22,281 nucleotides of DNA from positions 1 through 22,281 of IMG/VR virus record IMGVR_UViG_3300042361_000843; one strand, 5' to 3'. Position 1 is the first letter of the stretch, and each line of letters begins with the position of its first letter. A model generated the notes under the pieces. The model did no database searches. It saw only the letters and a list, made by a program, of their open reading frames with translations, and had not been told where the DNA came from. Source of the stretch: a virus. The position numbers and the translations under genes were made by a program. Positions 8,675-22,281 of the stretch are shown here, in pieces.

Positions 8675-8968
8675 TTAGGTGGTGAGGTTTTTGGATTGGC
8701 GGGCTTCTATGCAGAGTGGGCTGCCAGGCTGGAAGGACCGGCAGGCGGATGGGCGAGCATGATATATTGCGCAGGCGACTCCTCGGCCCACCTCGCCACG
8801 GAGGGCGATGCAGCGTCCGCAGGGGTCGGTTTTGAGCAGGGGGTAGTCGGTGCGGATGTAGTCGGCAGGGATGCCGGTGGCGTCGGAGCGGTCGCGCCGG
8901 AGCACGGGCCAGCTCCAACGGTGCGAGCAACATGCGCCACACCGTTGACAGTCGTATTGGGATTCCAT
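8675..8968 (-). CDS. YkgJ-like CxxCxxCC zinc/iron-chelating domain protein
   Basis: A 97-aa protein, MESQYDCQRCGACCSHRW..., with the cysteine spacing CxxCxxCC (Cys7, Cys10, Cys13, Cys14), a second group DPCGRC (Cys50, Cys53), CAIYHARPSACRSF and a final Cys near PLC. The C-x-IY-x-x-RP-x-x-C signature is typical of the YkgJ / UPF0153 metal-chelating family, whose biochemical role is not well defined. The same frame is open for 60 more codons upstream, but that stretch is Arg/Pro-rich shadow of the neighbouring gene, so I start at the ATG just before the cysteine motif. The whole 5' part overlaps, in a different frame, the last 262 bases of the PAPS-reductase-like reading frame. The stop is four bases before the next gene. 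Confidence 0.8.
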   Translation of the reverse strand: MESQYDCQRCGACCSHRWSWPVLRRDRSDATGIPADYIRTDYPLLKTDPCGRCIALRGEVGRGVACAIYHARPSACRSFQPGSPLCIEARQSKNLTT

Positions 8969-9801
8969 GTGGGTTGAAAGCCTTGCTCTGGGATGGAGTT
9001 GTCTTCGTAGGGGGCGAGGTGGGCGATGCTGTTGACCTCGCTGCGGAGCTTGGGGCACCACACGGGGGCGGAGAGGTGGCGGTTCACGCAGTTCCAGCAG
9101 ATGGGGTAGTAGTCGGCGTTGTGGGATTTGTCCTGCTTGTGGCCCCACTTGCCGGAGGCGCGGTCGTAGCGGGTGGGGTCCATGGGGACGCCTTCGGCTT
9201 CGAGGTAGTCGAAGATGTCGTCGTCGGTCCAGTGCCGCATGGGGAAAAGTTGGGTGGGGGAGTCGGCGACGCGGCGGACATCCTGGGCGAGGGGGACTTG
9301 GCCTTTGATGAGATCGACATCGGCGGATTTCTGGCCGTGGAATGCGGCGTCCCAGGGCCAGTTAAAGGAACCGGTGGGGCGCTGGAGGACATCGGTGAGG
9401 CCGCACAGGTAGGGCTCGCCTTCCTTGGGGTGCTCGGTGCCGAGGCTGAGGACGAGGGCGCTGTGGTGGCCCCACTGGTAGTATTTGAGGAAATCAAAAC
9501 GGGGCTGGCCGGTCTCGATGTCGAACCCATCTTGGATGGCGATGCGGCCGGGAGCGTAATCGAAGAGGGTGAGGTCCCACTCGCGGGCGAGGAGGTCGCT
9601 GTGGGCGTAGCGGTGGCGGAAGCGGGGTTCGCGCCATTGCACGCAGGGGAGCCGCACGCCGAGCTTGAAGATGAGGAGGTGCAGCATGGCGGTGCTGTCC
9701 TTGCCTCCGCTCCAGAGGACGACGGGGTTGCGAAATTCCCGCAGCCAATACTCGGCACGGGTCAGGGTTTCATCGACGAGGTTTTGCAGGTGTTGGTTCA
9801 T
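8707..9801 (-). CDS. PP-loop PAPS-reductase-like / ATP-pyrophosphatase enzyme
   Basis: A member of the adenine-nucleotide alpha-hydrolase (PP-loop) superfamily. The P-loop SGGKDST is at residues 31-37, preceded by the hydrophobic strand NPVVLW. Further family-like features are WGHHSALVLSLG (110-121), YLCGLTDVLQRP (131-142), FPMRHWTDDDIFDYL (186-200, the typical PAPS-reductase 'W..~DI..Y' segment) and a cysteine cluster CWNC...WC (Cys235, 238, 249) that could bind metal or an Fe-S cluster. Such enzymes activate or reduce sulfate esters or modify bases; the substrate here is unknown. Residues from about 278 onward are Ala/Pro/Thr/Ser low complexity and coincide with the overlapping cysteine-rich gene, so the functional protein may be only about 275 residues. 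The start is joined to the previous stop as TAATG. Confidence 0.85.
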   Translation of the reverse strand: MNQHLQNLVDETLTRAEYWLREFRNPVVLWSGGKDSTAMLHLLIFKLGVRLPCVQWREPRFRHRYAHSDLLAREWDLTLFDYAPGRIAIQDGFDIETGQPRFDFLKYYQWGHHSALVLSLGTEHPKEGEPYLCGLTDVLQRPTGSFNWPWDAAFHGQKSADVDLIKGQVPLAQDVRRVADSPTQLFPMRHWTDDDIFDYLEAEGVPMDPTRYDRASGKWGHKQDKSHNADYYPICWNCVNRHLSAPVWCPKLRSEVNSIAHLAPYEDNSIPEQGFQPTWNPNTTVNGVAHVARTVGAGPCSGATAPTPPASLPTTSAPTTPCSKPTPADAASPSVARWAEESPAQYIMLAHPPAGPSSLAAHSA

Positions 9802-17124: not shown

Positions 17125-17354
17125 ACTTCCTCCTCCTCTTCTTCGTCGTCTTCCATCGGGAACAATATGTCGCTGGTCCGCTCGGCGAGCTTTTCGACCG
17201 CGTATTCGTTCCCGAATTTAAAATCCATGTGGAATGTCTCGCCGCCCTCTTCCCAACTCACCACTGCGAGACCGACATCGAATTGCTCGACGAGTTCCTT
17301 GCGGATGCGCTCCAGCACGGCTTTGCGGGTGGCGGGCTTGCGTTTGGCGCTCAT
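17121..17354 (-). CDS. Small acidic-tailed protein, unknown function
   Basis: A 77-aa protein MSAKRKPATRKAVLERIR... with a basic N-terminus, a short beta hairpin-like centre (VVSWEEGGETFHMDFKFG) and a strongly acidic end (MEDDEEEEEEV). A longer upstream in-frame start exists at 17441, but that stretch only shadows the endolysin gene; the ATG at 17354 fits because it overlaps the endolysin stop as ATGA and has an AGGAGG site five bases upstream. Unknown function: the basic-acidic split suggests a nucleic-acid- or protein-binding adaptor or small inhibitor, a guess. Its acid tail codons form the ribosome binding site for the phosphoesterase. Confidence 0.7.
   Translation of the reverse strand: MSAKRKPATRKAVLERIRKELVEQFDVGLAVVSWEEGGETFHMDFKFGNEYAVEKLAERTSDILFPMEDDEEEEEEV
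17129..17137 (-). promoter_or_regulatory. Ribosome binding site embedded in acidic tail codons
   Basis: AGGAGGAGG in the Glu codons at the end of the 77-aa gene sits four bases before the phosphoesterase ATG at 17124, so the poly-Glu tail also serves translation initiation of the next gene. Confidence 0.65.
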
Positions 17355-19873: not shown

Positions 19874-19876
19874 GGT

Positions 19877-20161
19877 TTAGAGTCCTTTCGATTGGATGTA
19901 GGCTTGGAGGGCAGCTTGGATCGCGCCGATGGCGGTTTGCTCTTCGGTGCTGGCTTGGGAGAGCGAGCCGAGGACGACGGCCTTGCGGTGTTCCATGCCT
20001 GCTTGCTCGACCACACCGTCTTCGACGCGGGTCGGGATGAGCGACATGGCGACATTTGCATCGGGCTGGCCTTCGGGCTTGTAGAAGCCGGTGATGGCGA
20101 GGTTGAGGCTGTATTTGTCGAACGATTTGCCGTCGATTTGGAGTGGTGTGGATGCTGTCAT
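19877..20161 (-). CDS. 94-aa phage protein, tail-tip or fibre accessory, unknown
   Basis: Begins MTASTPLQIDGKSFDKYSLN; central YKPEGQPDANVAMSLIPTRV and VVEQAGMEHRKAVVLGSL; ends helical with STEEQTAIGAIQAALQAYIQ. A longer frame to 20329 exists but encodes an Arg/Gln-rich shadow of the preceding gene, so the ATG at 20161 is preferred. It lies 20 bases after the preceding stop with an A-rich leader and no clear ribosome binding site. I do not recognise a family; the position between two fibre genes suggests a fibre accessory or chaperone. Confidence 0.65.
   Translation of the reverse strand: MTASTPLQIDGKSFDKYSLNLAITGFYKPEGQPDANVAMSLIPTRVEDGVVEQAGMEHRKAVVLGSLSQASTEEQTAIGAIQAALQAYIQSKGL
19883..19888 (-). 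promoter_or_regulatory. Ribosome binding site of the 482-aa fibre gene
   Basis: AAAGGA nine bases before the ATG at 19873, overlapping the end of the 94-aa gene; it supports this start. Confidence 0.6.
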
Positions 20162-20181
20162 GGTGTTTGGATTTTTGAGGT

Positions 20182-20556
20182 TTAGGAAAATTGGAGTTGG
20201 GTTTTGTTCGACCACGCGCCGGTGGCGGATTGCTCCGAGACGACATCGCCGGCGGAGTTGGTGCTGATTTTGTAAATTGTCCAGGCGGTGGAGTCTTCTG
20301 GTTCGCCGGTTGCGGGGTAGTCGTCCCACTCAAGGCGTCCGATGTAGAGGTTCGCTCCGTCTACGGCGTGGACGAGGATGGCGGGGATTTCGTTGCGCGG
20401 GGGAGAGGTGAGTTGGAGGACGGCTCCGGTCTGCGGGTGGCGTCCATAAATTTTAATGTCTGCGTAGTTAATGCAGACTTCGCCGAGCGAAAGATCCGCA
20501 GTGCCGGGGATACGGTTCGGCACTACGGACTTTTTAGGCTTTATCGGAACTGGCAT
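20182..20556 (-). CDS. Fibre-associated protein with tail-fibre N-terminal attachment motif
   Basis: A 124-aa protein. MPVPIKPKKSVVPNRIPG... followed by ADLSLGEVCINYADIKIYG and GAVLQLTSP resembles the 'GEla.N..D..iy.k...G.v' start common in phage fibre proteins, where the N-terminus docks on the tail. The neighbouring 262-aa protein begins similarly (MSVPIRIRRRQSGS..., ELAFNEVDGILYYG), so the MPVPIK start is chosen by analogy over an in-frame ATG at 20595. The C-terminal half (AVDGANLYIGRLEWDDYPATG, WTIYKISTNSAGDVV) is beta-rich, with the WTIxKxxxxxxGDVV pattern also seen in the partial fibre at the window edge (WTITRSVFTPSGELV). Unknown tip function. Confidence 0.7.
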   Translation of the reverse strand: MPVPIKPKKSVVPNRIPGTADLSLGEVCINYADIKIYGRHPQTGAVLQLTSPPRNEIPAILVHAVDGANLYIGRLEWDDYPATGEPEDSTAWTIYKISTNSAGDVVSEQSATGAWSNKTQLQFS

Positions 20557-20582
20557 GAGTATGGACTCGGAAGAAATTGAAA

Positions 20583-20628
20583 GGCCGGTCGTCATGAATG
20601 GTCACGAGTGGACCGGCCCTGTGGGCCG
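20583..20628. other. Overlapping inverted repeats between fibre genes
   Basis: GGCCGGTC (20583-20590) pairs with GACCGGCC (20611-20618), and CGGCCC (20614-20619) pairs with GGGCCG (20623-20628) through the 3-base loop TGT. The two stems share bases 20614-20618 and cannot form together. No clear U-rich run follows on the leftward strand, so a classical terminator is uncertain; on the rightward strand TTTGCTTT follows. Confidence 0.5.
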
Positions 20629-20634
20629 TTTGCT

Positions 20635-21423
20635 TTAGAACGAGCCGCCGTCGATCTCGGTCTCGAGAACGAGGATGCGGGCGCTTAAAGCGTTGTCGTC
20701 TGAGAGGCGTGTGCTTGCCTCCGAGCTGATGGCGGACTGGCGGGCGCTGGTCTCTGCGCTGATCGCTGCTGCGCGGGCTGTGGACTCGGCGCTGATCGCG
20801 GAGGCGTTTGAGGTGATGCTGCTCTCGGCGCTGGTGACGCGGCTATTGAGAGCCGATGCGGCTGTCTCGATGTCCGAGATGTCGGAAGCGAGAACGGCCT
20901 CGGCTGCGGTGGCGCGGTTTACCTCGTTTGTGAGGTTTGTGGATGCGCTGGATGCGAGGCTGGTGATTGCTCCGTTGAGCGAGGAGTCTGCGGCTTGGAA
21001 GGCGCTCACAACTTCCGTCAGCGAATCAAGCGATCCTGCCGTGGTGTTGGAAAGCACATTGTCTATCCTTGTGCCGAGGGCTGCTTCGGCGTTTTGCGCA
21101 CGGGTGATCTCGTTCGAGAGATTCGTGGAAATCGTGCTTTCTGCGCCCTGCGCCCGTGTGACCTCGCTGGCGAGGTTTGTGGTGAGGGTGTTATCCGCTG
21201 CGATGCGTGCGGCTTGCTCTGTGGCGACGATGCCGTCTGCGTAGCTGCTCGAGGCGTTGCCGCCGATGCCAACGATTTGTGTGGCGTTGCCTTGGGCGTC
21301 GGCACCTTTACCGTAGTAAAGGATTCCATCAACTTCGTTGAAGGCGAGTTCGGCTGATTTGAGAACTCCGGGTGCTCCGGCGGAACCGGATTGGCGGCGG
21401 CGAATGCGAATTGGGACAGACAT
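20635..21423 (-). CDS. Tail fibre protein with coiled-coil shaft
   Basis: A 262-aa protein. N-terminal attachment segment MSVPIRIRRRQSGSAG, then ELAFNEVDGILYYG. The rest is a long Ala/Ser/Thr/Glu helical repeat region (TNLASEVTRAQGAESTIS, TNLSNEITRAQNAEAALG, then ISAESTARAAAISAETSAR), typical of trimeric coiled-coil fibre shafts, ending LETEIDGGSF. The final 'EIDGGSF' is closely matched by 'EIDAGFF' at the end of the partial fibre, a common fibre tip ending. Its leader is A-rich with no ribosome binding site. A 39-79-base spacer with hairpins follows before the next gene. Confidence 0.8.
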   Translation of the reverse strand: MSVPIRIRRRQSGSAGAPGVLKSAELAFNEVDGILYYGKGADAQGNATQIVGIGGNASSSYADGIVATEQAARIAADNTLTTNLASEVTRAQGAESTISTNLSNEITRAQNAEAALGTRIDNVLSNTTAGSLDSLTEVVSAFQAADSSLNGAITSLASSASTNLTNEVNRATAAEAVLASDISDIETAASALNSRVTSAESSITSNASAISAESTARAAAISAETSARQSAISSEASTRLSDDNALSARILVLETEIDGGSF

Positions 21424-21558
21424 GATTTTTTTGTGGTGTGGTGGTTGTGGTTGCGGTGTCCGGTGGTCGGACGGGCGTTATTTTGCCGCTCGAAAAAATC
21501 GTGTCTTCTGCGGGGCGTTCCTTGCGATTTTCACCACGCAGAGCGCGGAGGGGGAGAG

Positions 21559-21626
21559 TGACCGGCGTAGAGGCGGTGAGCGGTTTAAGGGAGGCACAGC
21601 ACGCCTTCCCCCGCTTGCGCCGGTCA
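21559..21626. repeat. Long nested inverted repeat in non-coding gap
   Basis: TGACCGGCG (21559-21567) is the exact reverse complement of CGCCGGTCA (21618-21626). Inside it AGCGG (21579-21583) pairs with CCGCT (21611-21615), and GGGAGGC (21589-21595) pairs with GCCTTCC-C (21603-21609) with one G-U on the rightward strand and a 7-base loop. Together they form an extended hairpin of about 68 bases. Confidence 0.65.
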
Positions 21627-21634
21627 AAATGGTG

Positions 21635-21650
21635 GCCGGGTTAACTCGGC
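21635..21650. promoter_or_regulatory. Imperfect palindrome centred on GTTAAC, operator candidate
   Basis: GCCGGGTTAACTCGGC is a 16-base near-perfect palindrome with one mismatched pair around GTTAAC. A dimeric repressor or regulator could bind it. No regulator for it is identified. Confidence 0.4.
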
Positions 21651-21715
21651 ATTATTGGGAAGGGCGTTTAAAAGCGCACCGCCTGAGCCGCCGACCATAT
21701 AAATTAAAACCCTAC

Positions 21716-21733
21716 GCCCAAGCGTCCTTGGGC
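21716..21733 (-). terminator. Rho-independent terminator candidate after the edge fibre gene
   Basis: Stem GCCCAAG / CTTGGGC (7 bp) with a 4-base loop. On the leftward strand it is followed by GTAGGGTTTTAATTT, a short T-rich tail six bases away. It lies 66 bases after the stop of the partial fibre gene. The tail is weaker than in textbook cases. Confidence 0.5.
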
Positions 21734-21798
21734 CTCATCTGTCGGTTCAGATTGTCAGTTGCGCATGGCAAGCCAGCCAGATGGCGTGACGGGTAGTT

Positions 21799-22281
21799 TT
21801 AGAAGAACCCTGCGTCGATCTCGCTGGTGGATACGGCCCCGGCGACATAGTTGGCAGTTTCGCGGGTGTCCCAGACTGCGTTTGCAGCTACGCCTCGGCT
21901 CACGAGTTCGCCGCTGGGCGTGAATACGCTGCGGGTGATTGTCCACGCCGATTGATCCGTGCCGGTGCCTGCGGAGGCGCGTCCGATCCAGTGCGTGAGG
22001 TGGTCGTCGGAGACATCCGAGATGAAGGAGAGGGAGCCGTAAACGAAGGCGGGGCCGCGCTCGCCTGCATCTCCCTTCGGGCCGGGGGCTGGTGACGGGA
22101 TGCCGAAATTGAGAACGGCGTTTTCCTGCGTTCCAACATTGGCAATCGTAGGCGTTGCGCCTGCGGGCAGCATGAAGACCGTGCCGACTGCGATGGTGGA
22201 GGAAAGGCCGCGAGGGAGGGCGAAATTCAAGACGGCATTTTGTGGCGTGCCGACATTTGAGACGGTGGCGGGTTGGTTCCC
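21799..22281 (-). CDS. Tail fibre protein, C-terminal part (5' truncated by window edge)
   Basis: Open frame to the right edge, 160 residues visible. Two copies of a short unit: PATVSNVGTPQNAVLNFALP and TPTIANVGTQENAVLNFGIP, a motif frequent in phage fibres ahead of collagen-like stretches. Here a very short collagen-like run GPKGDAGERGP follows. The C-terminal part includes HWIGRASAGTGTDQSAWTIT and FTPSGELVSRGVAANAVWDT and ends TSEIDAGFF, like the 262-aa fibre. An in-frame TTG at 22230 is unlikely as the real start because the first repeat copy continues upstream. Confidence 0.8.
   Translation of the reverse strand, partial: GNQPATVSNVGTPQNAVLNFALPRGLSSTIAVGTVFMLPAGATPTIANVGTQENAVLNFGIPSPAPGPKGDAGERGPAFVYGSLSFISDVSDDHLTHWIGRASAGTGTDQSAWTITRSVFTPSGELVSRGVAANAVWDTRETANYVAGAVSTSEIDAGFF

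Follow-up and report, generated by a model that had tools for sequence, protein, structure and literature searches.

A virus record of 22,281 bases in IMG/VR, referred to here in its entirety as the window, carries at positions 21559-21626 a hairpin that is real and that recurs in other phage records as a short element, which we call C. As judged from the sequences compared, C is a discrete unit whose stems co-vary and which is both exchanged and dispensable. The explanation that we favor, and in which we place about even confidence, is that C is an exchangeable palindromic cassette, the exchange being directly visible among related loci, that would also serve as a hairpin at the boundary of a transcript.

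Most of the long ORFs of the window lie on the minus strand and its first ORF is integrase-like. The hairpin is found in a gap of 375 nt (21424-21798) between two co-directional minus-strand ORFs (20635-21423 and 21799-22281). This is the largest gap in the ORF layout, but its description in an earlier note on this DNA as the only large non-coding gap was overstated, since there are others of ~300 nt (near 19874-20181 or 20334-20634, depending on the choice between two overlapping ORFs) and of 226 nt (17125-17350). Two plus-strand ORFs cross the hairpin (21338-21796 and 21438-21644), and the one of them that was scanned, 21438-21644, was without a Pfam match; the same note's view that the stretch is not coding nonetheless fits the swapping of cassettes and the occurrence of copies of 67 and of 68 bases (see below). 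The coordinates of all features are collected in Table 1. As separate observations, a 14-nt inverted repeat (21418-21431 / 21493-21506, 93% complementary) spans the start codon of the downstream gene (20635-21423), which could be hidden by it in the mRNA, and the distal arm of this repeat differs among relatives. Far from the gap, the stretch 8707-9801 (minus strand) has a short N-terminal match, covering residues 6-48 only, to phosphoadenosine phosphosulfate reductase families.

Table 1. Features in and around the gap that contains element C (positions in the window).
Feature	Position	Strand	Basis or remarks
Element C, 68-bp hairpin cassette	21559..21626	.	Inverted repeat, folding, alignment, covariance model
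Left arm of 9-bp outer stem	21559..21567	.	Exact inverted repeat, partner 21618-21626
Right arm of 9-bp outer stem	21618..21626	.	Exact inverted repeat
Middle stem, 5' arm	21572..21576	+	Partner 21611-21615; one pair doubly compensated
Inner hairpin, 5' arm	21589..21595	+	Partner 21603-21609; 7-nt loop 21596-21602
Element B, full form	21631..21796	-	Conserved cassette adjoining C; full form seen elsewhere only in L191
Degenerate CTCCGTG-type repeat remnant	21532..21554	-	Repeats follow the slot in relatives; stricter pattern without match here
20-mer GGAACGCCCCGCAGAAGACA	21502..21521	-	Single in the window; promoter-like by position only
Downstream gene, 262 aa	20635..21423	-	Residues 1-55 match head decoration protein; other parts tail-fibre or hypothetical proteins
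Upstream gene, truncated at window end	21799..22281	-	Fibre-like, by reading only

Two other virus records help to place the window. One (G010), with matches to integrase, baseplate, tape-measure, terminase, portal, and capsid/protease, is 86 and 84% identical to the window at the right end of the latter, and the other (G034), with a terminase of a different family, an exonuclease, and tail proteins, shares four blocks at 87-91% identity. The window is a mosaic, and these lineages therefore exchange modules; for this reason the idea that C links two unrelated phage types was toned down, the shared blocks being themselves evidence of module exchange. Searches further afield gave little: neither the gap nor C had a blastn match in phage and plasmid collections, and the protein of the neighboring gene had two weak matches in genome_contigs, one in an alphaproteobacterial and one in a clostridial MAG. 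A search with the covariance model of C through 398 genomes from the phylum of G040 had no hit and is uninformative, with no positive genome available as reference. No C-like element was recognised in the literature among the matches listed.

The ends of C are 9-bp terminal inverted repeats (TGACCGGCG/CGCCGGTCA). For its plus strand the folding energy is -36.9 kcal/mol, where shuffled sequences average -25.5 (z -3.52, with 1 of 200 shuffles equally good). This fold has an outer stem of 11 pairs, among them a G-U pair, then a bulge of 2 nt and a middle stem of 5 pairs, and, further inside, a one-sided loop followed by the 7-pair inner hairpin. The minus strand reaches -31.5 kcal/mol (z -2.09, with 7 of 200 shuffles equally good), so that folding both strands, as the earlier note had advised, gives a hairpin on each, and its extended hairpin with a perfect 9-bp outer stem and two inner stems is borne out by the exact repeat and by folding. 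The hairpin is not directly followed by a T run, with only two T within the next 8 nt on either strand of the window, which rules out an intrinsic terminator and agrees with the former description of this hairpin as something other than an ordinary U-tract terminator. In the other four distinct copies these 8 nt contain 2-5 T, five being reached in L082 (gene-sense) and L087 (antisense). A terminator scan of both strands called no site at 21559-21626, a weak test because it accepts loops of 3-8 only.

Copies in other records were found by exact and degenerate patterns. C is present in nine records (the window, L009, L011, L082, L084, L086, L087, L088, and L089), which reduce to five distinct sequences of 67-68 bp; matches in L090 (17-mer pattern; 96% to C over 24 nt) and in L091 and L092 (arm pattern) were read as chance and excluded from the nine. 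Among 85 virus records searched over their full length, many of them fragments, the covariance model was positive in 9, with one copy each. These 85 consisted of 40 records, among them the nine positive ones, and of 45 further ones with none, where a hit in the repeated record G035 is a known copy.

C occurs at two non-homologous gene boundaries and its limits coincide with its own outer stem, beyond which the flanks of the two loci are unalignable except for the adjoining repeats; in the same way, the alignment between the window and G034 near C covers only C and these repeats. The copy of the window is 97% identical to that of L082, at the other locus, and 94% identical to that of L009, at the same locus. 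The orientation relative to the flanking genes is the same in nine of nine records, which may be the product of only two or three events. No target duplication is evident by eye in the flanks, and no exact empty site matching the window copy was found.

Eight columns vary among the five distinct sequences, and the invariant core includes unpaired bases. Two pairs have changed on both sides, G-C to C-G in the outer stem and C-G to T-A in the middle stem, and when the same change patterns were placed at random two compensated pairs were obtained in only 41 of 200,000 trials, so the fold appears to have been kept. In the alignment 96.2% of the cells pair, against 41-51% with the partners slid by 1-3 columns, where double compensatory changes fall to zero. 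Of 500 shuffles, 7 matched the covariation score, but 240 did as well when pairs with changes on both sides were simply counted, and L009 and L011 carry one mismatch in the outer stem; all of these values come from five distinct sequences only. The proposal of a structured element thus gains from the compensatory changes in homologous copies, and a check of homologous gaps for stems changed without compensation left the hairpin reading standing, on the same five copies. A chance fold of GC-rich sequence would explain why the hairpin is stable, and of 80 control segments taken from related loci (mean z -0.28, sd 1.25) 7 also lie at z -2 or lower; nevertheless, with a z of -3.5 in the window, all five distinct copies folding below their own shuffles on both strands, compensatory changes, and unit borders that fall at the stem ends, we consider chance scarcely credible.

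The question of which strand would act as RNA is less clear-cut. Wobble pairs favor one strand each, and the invariant G-U pair suits the plus strand, the antisense one, which also folds more stably in four of the five distinct copies (window, L009, L082, and L084) and slightly less stably in L087. On the other hand, one change, seen in two copies, preserves its pair solely on the gene-sense strand, and the flanking genes lie on the minus strand, so that the suggestion that the G-U pair favors folding of the rightward transcript holds for the pair itself, which adjoins the 9-bp stem, and for four of five copies but not for that change or for the direction of the genes. Both the stabler plus-strand fold and the invariant G-U pair would be expected if C were a small structured RNA transcribed from the plus strand, antisense to the operon. 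We regard this as very unlikely, given that no sigma-70-like promoter was called in the region (a weak test), that no Rfam match was obtained, and that the change just mentioned keeps its pairing on the opposite strand.

To see what relatives carry in the same place, viral contigs were searched with the downstream protein, the best 80 of 477 relatives were kept, and gaps were inspected at 30 loci. Classification was based on 25 loci (window included) in which the 20-mer was present together with the start of the downstream gene and the stop of the upstream one, and which correspond to 22 distinct gaps; 12 loci that repeat counted records and one (L035) that covers no more than residues 1-53 of the gene were left out. 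Fourteen of the 22 contain a canonical terminator with a GC stem and a T run (element A), five a shortened form of another cassette, B, two contain C, and one, the window, has full B together with C. Since A never occurs together with B or C in these 22 distinct gaps (25 loci), terminator and B/C are mutually exclusive at this boundary, the A flag of the window being a false match on GGGTTTT inside B. Past the slot, the order is CTCCGTG-type repeats, then the 20-mer, and then the leader of the next gene. In the window the end of full B is formed by its own GC stem and T-rich stretch, so that the boundary in that gap may be set without C. The 20-mer is missing from six distant relatives (L021, L022, L029, and L031-L033), which lie outside the 25 loci and whose short gaps contain neither a terminator nor a cassette nor a repeat.

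Six of the nine copies belong to the second boundary, flanked by a small gene and a putative scaffold gene (by reading) and situated upstream of a major capsid gene. A search with the capsid protein, of which the best 80 of 103 relatives were kept, gave 84 loci after adding L086, L087, L088, and L082. Both landmarks were present in 54 of them, corresponding to 47 distinct gaps, and 30 loci without landmarks were dropped, 19 of which have less than 1.35 kb of sequence ahead of the capsid gene; among the other 11 we saw E in L116, L123, L129, and L156, and C in L082. The 47 gaps are quite varied, with 9 empty slots, 8 with E, 6 with a small hairpin, g, 5 with D, 4 with g+C, 4 with F, 3 with g+F, 2 with E+F, 2 with H, and 4 scored as other, one of which (L120) is by reading a variant of E. 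F lies within the CTCCGTG block and not ahead of it, and hairpin g adjoining C is, by reading, likewise no U-tract terminator.

At this locus the contents of the slot are swapped between near-identical flanks. L087, which has C, is 93-98% identical in its flanks to L148 and L153 (empty), L160 (D), L158 (H), and L168 (E), and in a lineage whose capsid is 49% identical to that of L084, L194 and L206 carry E where L082 has C, with slot-adjacent flanks 95-96% identical. That C might be an essential DNA site of the phage, for packaging, as an origin, or for site-specific recombination, is made attractive by the six copies shortly upstream of the major capsid gene. It is most improbable all the same, since close relatives do without C, which is replaced or absent between near-identical flanks and was not found in 76 of the 85 records (many of them fragments), and the empty slots disfavor it further; the packaging-related site of the earlier note is likewise not supported by this evidence. 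The 9 empty slots of 47, with the six relatives lacking any element at the first locus, also indicate that a boundary hairpin is not always needed.

Several of the other elements deserve description in their own right. On both strands, cassettes C, A, F, and H reach z values of -2 or below, the one exception being the C of L009 in sense (-1.70). For B, D, E, and K the values range from -1.8 to -0.2, inside the control range, so the generalization that every cassette is unusually folded was not supported. The full form of B links the window to an AT-rich contig (L191:1995-2128), with 96% identity over 69 nt and over 27 nt, L191 being without an Rfam match, and B is shortened in five other contigs (L012, L017, L024, L025, and L193). 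Element E, of ~140-200 nt, was found with one pattern in 16 contig stretches (L110:2514-2663, L118:481-656, L120:2470-2669, L194, and others) and in two phage lineages, with paired ends (AAGACAGG / CCTGTCTT in L194), invariant stretches, and inner parts of variable length. A structured RNA is one possibility for E, but its z-scores for folding do not stand out, and five loci, four of them carrying E, gave no Rfam match. Stretch K (L082:3683-3776), between the stop codon and C, is by reading flanked on both sides by AAACTTT, perhaps a duplication that another insert left behind.

The CTCCGTG-type repeats are seen in G010 (4310, 15867, 32238, and 35981) and G034 (19815), by position mostly at gene borders, and were not found in the two MAGs tested. 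As for the 20-mer, eight loci (L002, L009, L011, L013, L017, L023, L024, and L025) have three sites each, with 0-1 mismatch, two of the three coming in every case after a terminator or cassette, and none was detected in L082, L084, or L087.

Putting these data together, C would be a short palindromic cassette, bordered by its own outer stem, that occupies a gene-boundary slot in phages that exchange modules. The slot sits past the stop codon of one gene, ahead of short CTCCGTG-type repeats and of the next gene's leader. As these repeats are the sole flank common to the two locations of C, we propose that exchange takes place at gene borders, and that C may move between co-infecting phages through recombination or single-strand annealing. 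Once in an mRNA, C could mark the boundary of the upstream transcript, by stalling the polymerase or by protecting the 3' end, a role suggested by its occupying, at the locus of the window, the place of the intrinsic terminator of relatives. Against this role stand the empty slots of the second locus, the first-locus relatives without an element, the full B beside C, and the antisense fold that is stabler in four of five copies. Only tentatively would we extend the proposal to C, B, E, and probably further interchangeable cassettes, a number of which are closed by their own stem, as gene-less miniature mobile elements that move between phages as folded single strands into slots beside CTCCGTG-type repeats and reset transcript boundaries.

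A related possibility is that C is a non-autonomous mobile element of single-stranded DNA, similar to REP or to IS200/IS605 ends, whose folded strand is recognised by a host or phage enzyme, any effect at the RNA level being incidental. A hairpin-bounded unit at unrelated sites, the complementary ends of E, an invariant core that takes in unpaired bases, and folding on either strand with DNA parameters (window and L084) would all suit such an element. We think it unlikely, with a single copy per record, no Y1 transposase (PF01797; TnpA-REP), an enzyme that a host could instead encode, or TnpB-type domain (PF07282) in any of the nine C records (several being fragments), no consistent tetranucleotide 5' of the hairpin, and no target duplication seen by eye; an exact 23-mer of C was also without match in genome_contigs, a weak test because the 23-mer includes a position that differs between copies. 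By analogy with the RNase III sites of T7, C could instead be a cis-acting site for processing or stability in a polycistronic late mRNA, where cutting in the asymmetric loop would separate the fates of the messages. The long hairpin with its asymmetric internal loop, the co-directional genes on either side, the missing T run, and the conserved folding are all compatible with this, to which we nevertheless assign a low probability, C being dispensable between close relatives and alternating with terminators at the locus of the window, something not required of a mere processing site.

If the cassette reading is true, gene borders in these phages would be hot spots that exchange non-coding folded units besides genes, and a gap that looks unique from a single genome would owe this appearance to the single-genome view. 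The second locus would also provide a natural series (empty, C, D, E, and H), with near-identical flanks, for measuring the effect of a boundary element on structural genes.

Among known systems, several assignments were discarded. No Rfam family matched, either in the whole window at gathering thresholds or in 21400-21830 at E up to 5, and tRNA and tmRNA were rejected by ARAGORN. An IS200/IS605 TnpB-associated RNA was set aside for want of a TnpB-type domain on any of the nine records, several of which are fragments. The 9-bp ends of C do constitute terminal inverted repeats such as those that characterize MITEs. With intrinsic terminators C shares the slot at the locus of the window, but it has no T run and its hairpin is long and asymmetric. 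Integron attC sites are imperfect palindromes at gene 3' ends that work as folded single-stranded DNA, and C is likewise an imperfect palindrome at a gene 3' end; RYYYAAC / GTTRRRY boxes are absent from all five copies on both strands, and attC was rejected. T7-type RNase III sites are long asymmetric hairpins between co-directional phage genes, as is C, which differs in being swapped and dispensable. The boundary sequences of mosaic phages are short linkers at gene borders where modules are exchanged, and module exchange is common to both, although here the exchanged unit is the non-coding folded cassette itself.

GGAG, a variant of the REP tetranucleotide, occurs within 6 nt of C on the antisense strand in three of the five copies, inside the adjoining G-rich stretch, and on the gene-sense strand a REP tetranucleotide precedes none of the five distinct copies. 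REP elements measure 20-50 nt, are most often preceded by GTAG, and reach ~600 copies in E. coli K12 (PMC8266576). Like REP and REPIN sequences, C is a short intergenic bulged palindrome and a unit able to appear at new sites (PMC8266576, PMC3116915). C differs from these in its 67-68 nt, its one copy per phage record, its inconsistent tetranucleotide, and records in which no Y1 transposase was detected, and membership was rejected on the tetranucleotide, the copy number not agreeing either in the phage records examined. From the comparison with REP, attC, Y1/TnpB, and T7-type RNase III systems, C would be best counted among the short palindromic exchangeable elements, as a variant of them.
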